64,000 nucleotides of DNA from NCBI RefSeq assembly GCF_032229225.1, contig NZ_CP135076.1:620001-684000 (forward strand). Reading direction: 5' to 3'. Shown piece by piece: positions 6,218-46,280 of this stretch. Each line of letters begins with the position of its first letter. Positions within the stretch are counted from its first letter, which is position 1. The translations under genes were made by a program, and so were the position numbers. The notes beneath the pieces are model-generated. The model was given only the letters and a program-made list of their open reading frames with translations. It ran no database searches and was not told the origin of the DNA. Source of the DNA: Stakelama saccharophila (GTDB lineage Bacteria > Pseudomonadota > Alphaproteobacteria > Sphingomonadales > Sphingomonadaceae).

Positions 6218-6354
6218 AATTCCTCCCCCGCAGGGGGGCCATGCGAAGCATGGTGGAGGGGTATCGCGGGTTGCCTGCGCGCGCCGCTACGGCCGTCGTC
6301 GCCGGGGGGCTCCACCGCCTGCGGCGGTCCCCCTCCCCTTGCAGGGGAAGATTT
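6218..6354. repeat. Long palindromic intergenic repeat (copy A)
   Basis: About 137 bp with inverted ends (TTCCTCCCCCGCAGGGGG at the left, CCCTCCCCTTGCAGGGGAAG at the right) and internal GGTGGAGGGGT / CTCCACCGCC arms. It fills most of the 236-bp gap between the convergent genes hutC and the AlkA-type glycosylase. It shares layout and sequence with copy B at 41489-41615. It may act as a bidirectional terminator; that is inference. Confidence 0.8.
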
Positions 6355-6410
6355 TCGTGTCCGCTAATGGATACCGGTGGATTACCTGCCGGCCCGAAAT
6401 CGCCGCCCGC

Positions 6411-41488: not shown

Positions 41489-41615
41489 ATTCCTCCCCTG
41501 GAAGGGGAGGGGAACCAGCCGCAGGCTGGTGGAGGGGTGTTGCCGGCTGCCACGCCGTCATTGCGAGACCCCTCCACCGCGCAAGCGCGGTTCCCTTCCC
41601 CTTGCGGGGGAGGAT
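41489..41615. repeat. Long palindromic repeat (copy B) between thyA and folA
   Basis: About 127 bp, same layout as copy A at 6218-6354: left end TTCCTCCCCTGGAAGGGGAGG, inner GGTGGAGGGGTGT and CCCCTCCACCGCG arms, right end CCCTTCCCCTTGCGGGGGAGG. It fills nearly the whole gap. Its right end supplies the purine-rich sequence directly before the folA ATG. Confidence 0.88.
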
Positions 41616-42092
41616 ATGATCACCTTCTTTCTGGCACGTGCCGACAATGGCGTGATCGGCAAGGACGGGGACTTGCCCTGGCATATCCCCGCCGACCTGA
41701 AGCGGTTCAAGGCCATGACCATGGGCAAGCCGCTCGTCATGGGGCGCAAGACCTTCGAGAGTTTCCCCAGCCTGCTCAAGGGGCGGCGCCATATCGTTCT
41801 GACGCGCGATCGCGACTGGCAGGCGCCGGGGGCCGAGGTCGCGCACAGGCCGGAGGACGCGTTGGCGCTGGCGGGCGAGGGCGAGGTCGCGGTGATCGGC
41901 GGCGCGGAGATCTTCGCCATCTATCGCGACCGGGCCGATCGCGTCGAACTGACGGAGGTTCACTGCGCGCCGGCCGGCGACGCGACCGTACCCGCCTTCG
42001 ATGCCGCCGCGTGGCGCGAAACTGTCCGTGAGGACCATTTGGCGGAAGGCGAGCGCCCCGCGTTCAGCTTCGTTACGCTGGAACGGCGCTGA
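41616..42092 (+). CDS. folA: Dihydrofolate reductase
   Basis: Reduces dihydrofolate to tetrahydrofolate with NADPH; 158 residues, close to E. coli FolA (159). Features are FLARADNGVIGKDGDLPWHI (substrate Asp region), LKRFKAMTMGKPLVMGRKTF and EVAVIGGAEIFAIY. The ATG at 41616 is the only start giving the family N-terminus, and its GGGGGAGGAT ribosome region belongs to repeat copy B. It may be co-transcribed with thyA through the repeat. Confidence 0.95.
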   Translation: MITFFLARADNGVIGKDGDLPWHIPADLKRFKAMTMGKPLVMGRKTFESFPSLLKGRRHIVLTRDRDWQAPGAEVAHRPEDALALAGEGEVAVIGGAEIFAIYRDRADRVELTEVHCAPAGDATVPAFDAAAWRETVREDHLAEGERPAFSFVTLERR

Positions 42093-43289: not shown

Positions 43290-46280
43290 ATGAACGACGC
43301 ATCCGACACGAAGCGCGACTGGCGCGACACCGTCTTCCTGCCGAAGACCGATTTCCCGATGAAGGCCGGCCTCGCCGCCAAGGAACCGGCGATCCTGGAA
43401 CGCTGGGCGCGGATCGGCGTGTACGAGCGGCTGCGCGAACAGCGCGCGGAGGCGGAGCGCTTCCTCCTCCATGACGGCCCGCCTTATGCCAATGGCGACC
43501 TGCACATGGGCCATGCACTCAACAAGATCCTGAAGGATCTGGTGACGCGCAGCCAGTCGCTGCTCGGCAAGAACGCGCCTTATGTCCCCGGCTGGGACTG
43601 TCACGGCCTGCCGATCGAATGGAAGGTCGAGGAAGCCTATCGCAAGAAGAAGCTGAACAAGGACGAGGTCGATCCCGTCCAGTTCCGCGCCGAGTGCCGC
43701 GCCTATGCGAGCAAATGGGTCGATGTGCAGCGCGAGCAGTTTAAGCGTCTGGGCATCATGGGCGACTGGGACGATCCCTATCTGACGATGAAGTTCGAAT
43801 CGGAAGCGATCATCGCCGGCGAGCTTCTGAAGTTTGCCGAATCCGGCCAGCTTTATCGCGGTGCCAAGCCGGTGATGTGGTCGCCGGTCGAAAAGACCGC
43901 GCTCGCCGAGGCGGAGGTCGAATACGAGGACATCGTCTCGACCCAGATCGACGTGGCGTTCGAGATCACCGAAGCGCCGAACGCGCCGGAACTGGTCGGC
44001 GCGCATGCCGTCATCTGGACGACGACGCCGTGGACGATCCCGGTCAACCAGGCGTTGGCCTATGGTGCGGACGTCCATTATCATCTTTTCTTCGATGAGC
44101 ATGGACGCAAGTTCCTTCTGGCCTTCGACCTTAAGGAAGCGTTCGAGCGACGGACCGGACTGGCACTTCGAACCCTAGAAAATGTTTCGCCGGATTTATT
44201 AGAGAACCTACGGGACATCGTTGACCGGCAGATACCCGGCAGTCTGCTCGCCGGCGCGAGGGCGCAGCATCCGATGCACCATCTCGGCGGGTTCTTCGCG
44301 AAACCCCGGCCCTTCCTCGATGGTTCGCACTTCGTCACCACCGACGCGGGCACCGGCATCGTTCACATGGCGCCCGATCACGGCGAGGACGATTTCTGGC
44401 TGTGCCGCGCAGCGGGGATCGACCCGGTCTTCGCGGTCGAGGGTGATGGCAAGTACCGCGACGACTGGGCGTGGCTCGGCGGGCAGGGCAGCGTCATCAA
44501 CAAGAAGTTCGTCGCGTCCGACGGGCCGATCTGCACCGATCTGCGCGAAGCGGGGGCGCTGCTGGCAGCGTCGGACGATTTCGAGCACAGCTATCCGCAT
44601 AGCTGGCGCTCGAAGGCGAAGATCATCTACCGCTGCACCCCGCAATGGTTCATCCCGATGGATCAACCCGCGAACGGTGATCGTCCGGGGGACGATCACA
44701 GCGGGTTGATCGCCGAGCGAAGCGAGGTGTGGTCCCCCTCCCGCCTGCGGGAGGGGTCAGGGGAGGGCCTGTTGGAGCAACAGGCGCCCAAGCTCGAAGA
44801 TCGCGCGTCTGACCCTCCCCCGGCCCCTCCCGCAAGCGGGAGGGGAGATAACGGCCCGACGTTGCGCGAACTCGCGCTCGACGCGATCGCGCGGACGCGC
44901 TGGGTGCCCGAGCGGGCGAAGAACCGCATCCGCGCGATGGTCGAGGGGCGGCCCGACTGGGTGATCAGTCGCCAGCGTGCCTGGGGCGTGCCGATCCCGC
45001 TTTATGTCCACCGCCGGACCGGCGACTATCTGCGCGACGAAGGCGTCAATGCGCGCATCATAGAGGCTTTCCGCAATGGCGGAGCCGATGCGTGGTTCGC
45101 CGCCGATCACCAGGTGCTGCTCGGCCCCGACTACGACCTGGCCGACTATGCGCCGGTCACCGACATTCTCGACGTGTGGTTCGATTCGGGCTCGACCCAC
45201 GCCTTCGTGATCGAGCAGCGTTATGGCGAGGGCGTCCGCGCCGACCTCTATCTCGAAGGCTCTGACCAGCATCGCGGCTGGTTCCAGTCGTCGCTGCTCG
45301 AATCGGCCGGCACACGCGGCCGCGCGCCCTACACGTCAGTGCTGACGCACGGCTTCGCGCTCGACAGGAACGGGCGCAAGATGTCGAAGAGCCTCGGCAA
45401 CGTCGTCGATCCGCTCAAGATCATCGATCAGTCGGGCGCGGATATTCTCCGCCTCTGGGTCGCGAGCACCGACTATTTCGAGGATGTGCGCATCGGCGAC
45501 GAGGTGCTGAAGGGCACGAGCGACGCCTATCGCAAGCTCAGGAACACCTTCCGCTACATGCTCGGCGCGCTCGACGGGTTCACCGATGACGAGAAGATCG
45601 GCGTCGACCGGATGCCCGAGCTGGAACGCTATATCCTCCACAAGCTCGGCACGCTCGACGTGGAGCTGCGCAATACGATCGAGAATTACCAGTTCCACCG
45701 CTATTCGCGCGCGCTGATCGAGTTCATGAACGAGGACCTGTCGGCGTTCTTTTTCGATATCCGCAAGGACTGCCTCTATTGCGATGCCGCCGACGACCCC
45801 AAGCGGCGCGCATACCGGACGGTGCTCGATACGCTGTTCCACGCGCTGGTGCGCTACGCCGCGCCGATCCTGTGCTTCACCGCCGAGGAAGTGTGGCAGG
45901 CGCGCTTCCCGAGCGAGGACGATTCGGTCCATTTCCTGACCTGGCCCGAACTGCCGCCGCTGCCCGGCGACGATGCGATCTCGACCAATTGGGAGAGCGT
46001 CCGGTCCTTGCGCGAGCGCGTGACCGAGGCGATCGAGCCTTTGCGGCGCGAAAAGGTGATCCGCTCGAGCAACGAGGCCGAGGTGACGGTGCCCGAAATG
46101 CCGCTGCCGGCCGACCACCTGCAGGAGATCTTCATTTCCTCGACCGTTCATCGCGGCGAAGGGGAGGTGACGGTAGAGCGTACCGACAACCACAAATGCG
46201 GCCGCTGCTGGCGCTGCCTGCCGGACGTTTCGGAAGACGGCGCACTTTGCGGTCGCTGCGAAAGGGTGATCAACCGATGA
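43290..46280 (+). CDS. ileS: Isoleucyl-tRNA synthetase with in-frame repeat-derived insertion
   Basis: Class I synthetase that charges tRNA-Ile and edits valine; 996 residues. HIGH motif appears as GDLHMGHALNK and KMSKS as RKMSKSLGNVV; the C-terminal zinc finger has HKCGRCWRCLP and CGRCERVINR. Between CTPQWFIPMD and LRELALDAIARTRWVP lie about 55-60 extra residues (about 465-523) encoded by palindromic DNA, rich in Arg, Pro, Ser and Glu. A stretch of the editing domain around 44090-44225 uses AT-rich codons, including two consecutive TTA. The frame is intact, and the essential function implies the insertion is tolerated. The stop overlaps lspA (ATGA). Confidence 0.95.
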   Translation: MNDASDTKRDWRDTVFLPKTDFPMKAGLAAKEPAILERWARIGVYERLREQRAEAERFLLHDGPPYANGDLHMGHALNKILKDLVTRSQSLLGKNAPYVPGWDCHGLPIEWKVEEAYRKKKLNKDEVDPVQFRAECRAYASKWVDVQREQFKRLGIMGDWDDPYLTMKFESEAIIAGELLKFAESGQLYRGAKPVMWSPVEKTALAEAEVEYEDIVSTQIDVAFEITEAPNAPELVGAHAVIWTTTPWTIPVNQALAYGADVHYHLFFDEHGRKFLLAFDLKEAFERRTGLALRTLENVSPDLLENLRDIVDRQIPGSLLAGARAQHPMHHLGGFFAKPRPFLDGSHFVTTDAGTGIVHMAPDHGEDDFWLCRAAGIDPVFAVEGDGKYRDDWAWLGGQGSVINKKFVASDGPICTDLREAGALLAASDDFEHSYPHSWRSKAKIIYRCTPQWFIPMDQPANGDRPGDDHSGLIAERSEVWSPSRLREGSGEGLLEQQAPKLEDRASDPPPAPPASGRGDNGPTLRELALDAIARTRWVPERAKNRIRAMVEGRPDWVISRQRAWGVPIPLYVHRRTGDYLRDEGVNARIIEAFRNGGADAWFAADHQVLLGPDYDLADYAPVTDILDVWFDSGSTHAFVIEQRYGEGVRADLYLEGSDQHRGWFQSSLLESAGTRGRAPYTSVLTHGFALDRNGRKMSKSLGNVVDPLKIIDQSGADILRLWVASTDYFEDVRIGDEVLKGTSDAYRKLRNTFRYMLGALDGFTDDEKIGVDRMPELERYILHKLGTLDVELRNTIENYQFHRYSRALIEFMNEDLSAFFFDIRKDCLYCDAADDPKRRAYRTVLDTLFHALVRYAAPILCFTAEEVWQARFPSEDDSVHFLTWPELPPLPGDDAISTNWESVRSLRERVTEAIEPLRREKVIRSSNEAEVTVPEMPLPADHLQEIFISSTVHRGEGEVTVERTDNHKCGRCWRCLPDVSEDGALCGRCERVINR
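44661..44711. repeat. Nested palindrome inside ileS
   Basis: Two perfect nested inverted repeats. Outer arms: GATCAACCCGC (44661-44671) and GCGGGTTGATC (44701-44711). Inner arms: GTGATCGTCC (44677-44686) and GGACGATCAC (44690-44699), around a GGG loop. It sits at the left boundary of the insertion in the synthetase and is translated in frame. Confidence 0.92.
44731..44849. repeat. Palindromic repeat (copy C) inserted in frame in ileS
   Basis: About 119 bp with strong terminal hairpins: CCCTCCCGCCTGCGGGAGGG at the left and CCCCTCCCGCAAGCGGGAGG at the right. The outer parts also pair (GGGAGGGGTCAGGGGAGGG with CCCTCCCCCGGCCCCTCCC). The composition resembles copies A and B. All 119 bases are read as protein within ileS, without a stop. 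Confidence 0.9.

Follow-up and report, generated by a model that had tools for sequence, protein, structure and literature searches.

How does a long palindromic repeat come to be read as protein inside an essential enzyme, and why is it kept there? The question is raised by ileS, the gene for isoleucyl-tRNA synthetase (IleRS), in a stretch of 64,000 nucleotides of the genome of Stakelama saccharophila (contig NZ_CP135076.1, positions 620,001 to 684,000), which we call the window and whose numbering is used unless a genome coordinate is given. The gene (43290-46280, forward strand, 996 residues) contains an inverted repeat of 119 bp (44731-44849) between the segments CTPQWFIPMD and LRELALDAI. 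We consider it likely that this repeat is an in-frame insertion resembling the repetitive extragenic palindromic (REP) sequences, that it stems from a dispersed repeat family and is tolerated in a permissive loop of IleRS, and that such insertions have recurred across the Sphingomonadaceae.

A palindromic element within the ileS reading frame

The ileS product carries the Pfam domains tRNA-synt_1 and Anticodon_1 and is the only IleRS match stronger than ~1e-16 in the genome, which consists of one contig of 3.19 Mb. Its nearest named relatives are the enzymes of Stakelama marina (81%) and S. pacifica (78%). The frame from 43290 to 46280 is free of stops throughout, the 119-bp element included. 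Folded as RNA, the element reaches -89.8 kcal/mol, versus a mean of -57.2 +/- 3.9 for shuffled sequences (z -8.35, none of 200 shuffles being equally low), and the best inverted-repeat score in ileS is 24, the maximum among 200 codon-shuffled copies being 14. Together, the two kinds of shuffling exclude a chance palindrome in GC-rich DNA, and the original prediction, made from the letters of the window, of a palindromic element translated in frame is borne out. An RNA gene was also rejected as an explanation: the sole Rfam matches were four to microRNA precursors, well under their cut-offs, as expected of a long hairpin. Assembly error is unlikely given the single contig and the many separate assemblies that show palindromes at the same site.

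The element (type A below, residues ~481-520) consists of two REP-like units placed head to head around a spacer and 91% complementary to each other. The left unit (44735-44767, forward strand) is formed by the hairpin CCCCTCCCGC-GCGGGAGGGG plus a tail, and the right unit (44813-44845, reverse strand), recognised by its pairing with the left one, has the inverted orientation. A small hairpin (44768-44784), read from the sequence and paired in the fold, lies in the spacer. Directly upstream of the element, and likewise in frame, is a second palindrome of 51 bp (44661-44711) that is 76% self-complementary and present in a single copy, its only match in the genome being itself. Both lie in an expanded loop between the WFIPM and LRELALDAI segments (44658-44861, forward strand, residues ~457-524), which measures 98 residues up to the SRQR motif. 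The added stretch amounts to ~63 residues rather than the 55-60 first proposed; the 119-bp element supplies ~40 of them and the remainder comes mostly from the second palindrome and its surroundings, so that the insert is composite.

In an AlphaFold2 model of the enzyme built from 45 aligned sequences (mean predicted local distance difference test, pLDDT, 86.5), the pLDDT falls below 50 solely at residues 1-5 and in the insert (464-519). A Foldseek search matched the model to solved IleRS structures, which are its closest solved structures (e.g. 8c9e, 1ffy), with a query-normalised template modelling (TM) score of 0.83 to 8c9e and 8c9f; in 8c9e and 1ffy two or three residues replace ~457-524. 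The KMSKS motif stands at residues 697-701. The loop is probably at the surface of the protein and exposed to solvent.

The loop is long and often palindromic across the family

A protein search found ileS in all 61 genomes of the genus sample. In the class and order samples, 112 of 115 and 113 of 118 genomes, respectively, had matches, and loops were read from those matches that were extracted as loci or fetched. To these we added 80 named loci, the best 80 of 264 from the species collection, all of which we took to belong to the family, with no locus-by-locus check of taxonomy. Loops were measured from the WF motif to SRQR. A first extraction pattern missed 9 of 141 loci, and a looser one, which starts one residue later, gave all except L059 (genomes and loci are cited by our G and L handles where needed); the lengths mix both patterns and are uncertain by one residue. 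L214 and L243 were trimmed, and L179, L180 and L233, duplicates of other rows, were omitted from the loop count. A stop-free loop was recovered at 140 of the 141 loci (the contig of L059 ends just after the loop), a lack of stops that partly follows from the extraction procedure.

Outside the family, 40 loops span 35-53 residues (median 35), in agreement with the expectation that the two flanking segments lie close together in ordinary enzymes, compared with 98 residues in S. saccharophila. Inside the family, 162 distinct loops span 37-132 residues (median 68). Strong palindromes, defined by an inverted-repeat score of at least 18, occur in 40 of these 162 loops, in none over 20 rounds of codon shuffling, and in none of the 40 loops from outside the family; at a score of at least 14, the count is 48 of 162 versus a shuffled mean of 0.25. 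The check for strain specificity proposed with the original prediction therefore has another outcome than a strain oddity: the site is a family-wide hotspot for palindromes of at least five dissimilar groups. The converse expectation, an insertion that is common, conserved and non-repetitive, holds in its first part, since long loops are usual, and fails in the others, the loop sequence not being conserved and being palindromic in a quarter of cases. The Stakelama loops (LPERVREG...PTPASA) look, to the eye, like type-A elements and may be decayed copies of them. The longest loop (132 residues) belongs to L108, Sphingomonas sp. CFBP 13720, where a type-E palindrome is followed by a degenerate tandem repeat that reads GVTSGAG.

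The surroundings of ileS provide a measure of how particular the loop is. The 80 named loci comprise 691,893 bp, of which 557,262 lie in conserved coding regions, and hold 18 strong palindromes in the loop (16,917 bp in all), 52 outside conserved coding sequence, and two in the ~540 kb of other conserved coding sequence. Only one of these two is a genuine in-frame insertion, which lies in the part of the L114 ileS gene that codes for the editing region; the other, in L131, apparently precedes the start codon. Lowering the threshold to 15 gives 22 palindromes in the loop, 4 in other conserved coding sequence and 77 elsewhere. In 60 further ileS loci (L031-L091 without L059), the loop holds 21 strong palindromes and the rest of ileS 4. 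The 80-locus count rejects the idea that coding sequence is leaky in general, as far as the genes around ileS are concerned.

Dissimilar palindrome groups and their turnover

From their arm motifs we labelled eight types of palindrome, A to H. Read as protein, type A has the motif PSRLREGSGEG...PPLTPPASGRG, type B SPSPSGEGLGVG...PHPNPSPEGEG, type E VAPAKAGASGE...HETPAFAGVT, type F VRAEPVEAR...RQAQGER and type G VSTSLDTNG.... Pairwise BLAST of 15 representatives (H being represented by one) linked B to C clearly (74-77% over >100 nt), A to B over 37 nt and C to D over 29 nt; at E <= 1e-3, the groups A-D, E, F, G and H remained unconnected. The eight types thus fall into at least five groups between which no similarity was detected. 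Many palindrome arms still pair almost perfectly.

The distribution of the types was followed on a FastTree phylogeny of 193 IleRS sequences (183 distinct), computed with the loop excluded and read without branch supports; five labelled loci (L055, L236, L238, L239, L241) were too short for it. A labelled palindrome is carried by 58 of the 183 distinct sequences, and with eight labels the 60 labelled rows, weak palindromes among them, group into 54 uniform clades. The minimum number of state changes on the tree is 50 when all eight labels are kept apart, 43 when A-D count as one and 34 when only presence or absence is scored; these numbers pool gains, losses and replacements. Turnover is also visible between close relatives: L047 and L087 have a synonymous divergence (dS) of only ~0.16 in the rest of ileS, yet their loops are wholly different, that of L047 being palindromic.

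For one clear case the source of a copy can be suggested by sequence comparison. In ileS of G002, the type-B copy shares 90% identity with copies at other places of the same genome; with the ileS copies of G051, G031, G041 and G004 it shares, among the matches listed, 83-86%. It thus looks as if it were drawn from the pool of its genome.

The elements belong to dispersed repeat families

The 119-bp element has at least 52 matches at E <= 1e-3 in its own genome, with 40 of 49 candidates scored and with one palindromic place able to match several times; 29 distinct type-A places were used in what follows. Of the 61 genus genomes, the type-A element was matched in 45, and representatives of types B, E and G in 52, 38 and 30, respectively. 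As at most 14 candidates were scored in each genome, the numbers of matches found there are minimum values. The search covered types A, B, E and G, and each of the four is multi-copy in the genome from whose ileS its representative was taken. Type F is multi-copy in the S. saccharophila genome, where it was seen through glyS.

A REP doublet of the kind called REPIN pairs two inverted REPs with a spacer between them. The ileS element shares this architecture and its multi-copy nature; the third mark of REPINs, a REP-associated tyrosine transposase (RAYT), was not found. A profile search for it (PF01797), in which 5 of 14 controls were positive, had no match in the genome of S. saccharophila and matches in 4 of the 61 genus genomes, and RAYT was thus rejected as the mover in this genome. 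As for end tags, neither GTAG nor CGTC was seen by eye at either end of the ileS copy, the one copy inspected, and type E starts with CGTC.

Other genes with in-frame elements

We asked which other genes of the S. saccharophila genome carry elements, and counted at least 66 places of types A, G and F, 40 of 379 candidates having been scored in one of the underlying searches. Forty-nine spanning stop-free frames were tested with Pfam and 15 places had no such frame; frames without coding-like base composition mostly stayed outside the Pfam test. Elements lie inside nine Pfam-supported genes: type A in ileS, valS, leuS, glyS and hrpB; type G in the propionyl-CoA carboxylase alpha gene, in glyS and, by one arm, in carA; type F in glyS, the linker of an E2 acyltransferase and methylmalonyl-CoA mutase. 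The repeat inside other coding sequences, for which the original prediction recommended a search, is thus present. The type-A elements of valS and leuS are in frame (genome coordinates G000:C1:2387298-2387395, L003, and 370550-370583, L016), and glyS, coding for the beta subunit of glycyl-tRNA synthetase (GlyRS-beta; G000:C1:2768165-2770660, L014:45-2540, reverse strand), bears four in-frame elements, of types A, G, F and E. Eight more Pfam-positive frames, with the element upstream of the domain, were left uncounted (PrmC, FumC, EF-G, YebC, FMN reductase, GNAT, ABC-2 and DUF559).

Aminoacyl-tRNA synthetases account for four of the nine invaded genes, far above their share of coding sequence, which we estimate at ~1.5%; the four of nine is biased in that ileS was given beforehand and the glyS query supplied most of the G and F places. 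With type A alone and ileS omitted, three of four invaded genes are synthetases. A sample of 40 type-B places, picked from the listed rows of four other genomes (G002, G023, G054, G051), gave 21 places without a spanning frame, 20 tested frames and four gene hits, MurD, MutL twice and PccA, none of them a synthetase, so that an exclusive preference for synthetases is rejected. The two MutL hits are differing type-B elements at the same position of the linker in G002 and G054 (L309, L329), and one loop of PccA (L265, L330) holds type B in G054 and type G in S. saccharophila. The safer statement is one of a set of permissive loops rather than synthetases alone. That sphingomonad synthetase genes (IleRS, ValRS, LeuRS, GlyRS-beta) are a preferred, perhaps selected, REP habitat, served by a mover other than RAYT and with an effect on translation or folding, is an idea we regard as unlikely.

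How the loop may have been invaded

The following course of events would account for these observations. A REP-like inverted repeat from the dispersed family of the genome would insert in frame beside the single-copy palindrome, having arrived by a transposition-like copying from the genomic pool. The insert would be read through as a disordered loop that the protein retains, mainly because it is tolerated, and insertion, decay and replacement would make up the turnover. In this way the same loop has probably been invaded many times, by unrelated palindrome groups carried elsewhere in the genomes of the respective lineages.

Several observations weigh against this account. No transposition event and no clean empty site was found, nor was a target site duplication, a mark of miniature inverted-repeat transposable elements (MITEs), seen by eye in the flanks or in the alignment of L047 and L087. 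The state changes counted on the tree are not all insertions. The type-E copy in ileS of G026 is closest to the ileS copy of G010 (92%), the alternatives being lower (83% for the best other copy in G026, 89% for a non-ileS copy of G010), and as these two ileS copies are mutually closest, some sharing by descent or allele exchange has to be admitted. Palindromes also occur in IleRS beyond the loop. The editing region serves as a lesser insertion site, around residues 290 and 330, and holds further in-frame palindromes, strong ones in L044, L057, L058, L060 and L114 and weaker ones in L075 and L128; weaker or decayed repeats are found near residue 330 in further relatives, and another such repeat lies near residue 890 in L169. 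The density of strong palindromes is 1.06/kb in the loop versus ~0.39/kb outside conserved coding sequence, an excess for which tolerance alone may not suffice. Finally, the ratio of nonsynonymous to synonymous differences per site (pN/pS) is low (0 to 0.44) in some palindromic loop pairs, unlike plain neutrality.

The last two points would be expected if the insert had a selected function, an ileS mRNA hairpin or a protein loop that is useful, e.g. by slowing translation in aid of folding or by tuning the enzyme level, and that lineages re-acquire. The four invaded synthetase genes of S. saccharophila, with GlyRS-beta hit by four elements, fit this idea, as does the pair L044/L052 with three synonymous and no nonsynonymous differences. 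As a test of function, pN/pS rests on few sites and its outcome is mixed: the seven palindromic loop pairs with differences range from 0 (L044/L052) to 1.22 (L055/L116), some of them lying at 0.55-1.22, and the remainder of ileS gives 0.06-0.36 when all pairs are taken together. Moreover, 122 of the 162 distinct family loops have no strong palindrome, so that none is required, the sequence, length and type are all variable, and the type-B places of four other genomes hit no synthetase. We therefore hold a selected function to be improbable. A preference of the machinery for a target at the DNA level, or an exchange of loop cassettes by homologous recombination within the ileS flanks, would explain the replacement of whole loops between close relatives with conserved flanks, and the mutual proximity of the type-E copies of G010 and G026. 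This does not sit easily with unrelated palindrome groups at one site, with the type-B copy of G002 being nearer, among the matches listed, to non-ileS copies of its genome, or with the flanks, in which no common target motif is evident by eye, no formal test having been made, and we find it quite improbable. One old insertion whose descendants became unrecognisable in the separate lineages could draw on the usual length of the loops in the family, on the similarity linking types A-D, and on the common origin that the Rickettsia japonica authors favoured for three of their palindrome groups (PMC3767692); it is largely refuted, and the chance that it is true is minimal, by the lack of detectable similarity among groups A-D, E, F, G and H, by the multi-copy state of types A, B, E and G in genomes whose ileS holds them, and by the near-perfect pairing of many arms, which an ancient insert would have lost. 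Recurrent, tolerated insertion from dispersed families thus remains the explanation that we prefer.

Relation to known palindromic elements

The closest parallel in behaviour, as the original prediction had it, is offered by the Rickettsia palindromic elements (RPE). These palindromes of ~100-150 bp lie in frame in conserved genes and are solvent-exposed in models (PMC3767692, PMC10969869); RPE-7 is listed in isoleucyl-tRNA synthetase and in the beta subunit of phenylalanyl-tRNA synthetase (PheRS), and different RPE groups are found at one locus (PMC3767692). In-frame palindromic insertion in conserved genes is common to RPE, Wolbachia palindromic elements and the ileS element, whereas the latter occurs in the GC-rich Sphingomonadaceae and shares its site with dissimilar groups; we consider it to work like an RPE without classing it as one. 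For Rickettsia, the R. japonica authors leaned towards a common origin of RPE-4, RPE-6 and RPE-7 and did not exclude hotspots (PMC3767692). The ileS loop bears on this question of whether different palindromes at one site reflect a hotspot or common descent, since the five or more groups at the site, with no similarity detected among them, argue for a hotspot here. A similar evolution of proteins in other prokaryotes was deemed conceivable in a review (PMC10969869).

REPs read in frame have been published before, also from tRNA synthetases of sphingomonads. Members of the GTAG and CGTC superfamilies can lie wholly within open reading frames, those of tRNA synthetases of X. oryzae, E. litoralis and S. 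alaskensis among them, and recB of two Xanthomonas has different REPs at about the same site (PMC3733652). The elements described here resemble them in lying inside genes, synthetases included, and type E begins with CGTC like one of the superfamilies, but type A has neither tag at its ends, and the parts of that study considered here do not mention repeated insertion into a single ileS loop throughout a family. Nor did a literature search, judged by titles and abstract openings, return a recurrent palindromic invasion of sphingomonad ileS. Di Nocera and co-workers state that CGTC repeats, which they studied also in S. wittichi, likewise have no transposase dedicated to them (PMC3733652). The likeness to REPINs (PMC3116915) lies in the inverted, multi-copy REP pair and ends at the RAYT-type Y1 transposase. 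REP-like repeats are thus abundant even in genomes where a recognised REP transposase was not found. The coding palindromes of Nematomorpha mitochondria are also long inverted repeats read as protein, but, rather than being insertions of a dispersed repeat, they code for conserved residues (PMC6649704). In the Sphingomonadaceae, the ileS loop amounts to a natural insertion experiment, in which one loop of an essential enzyme has received and kept inserts of a few dozen residues that differ widely from one another.

Other repeats in the window

Two intergenic repeats of the window, near 6218 (~6220-6355) and 41489 (41489-41618), had been thought to resemble the ileS element. This kinship was rejected, the sole match near either being 12 nt long and at chance level. 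They match each other at 89% over 44 nt and belong to a different palindrome family, whose arms are C-rich and G-rich and whose sequence bears no relation to that of the ileS element.

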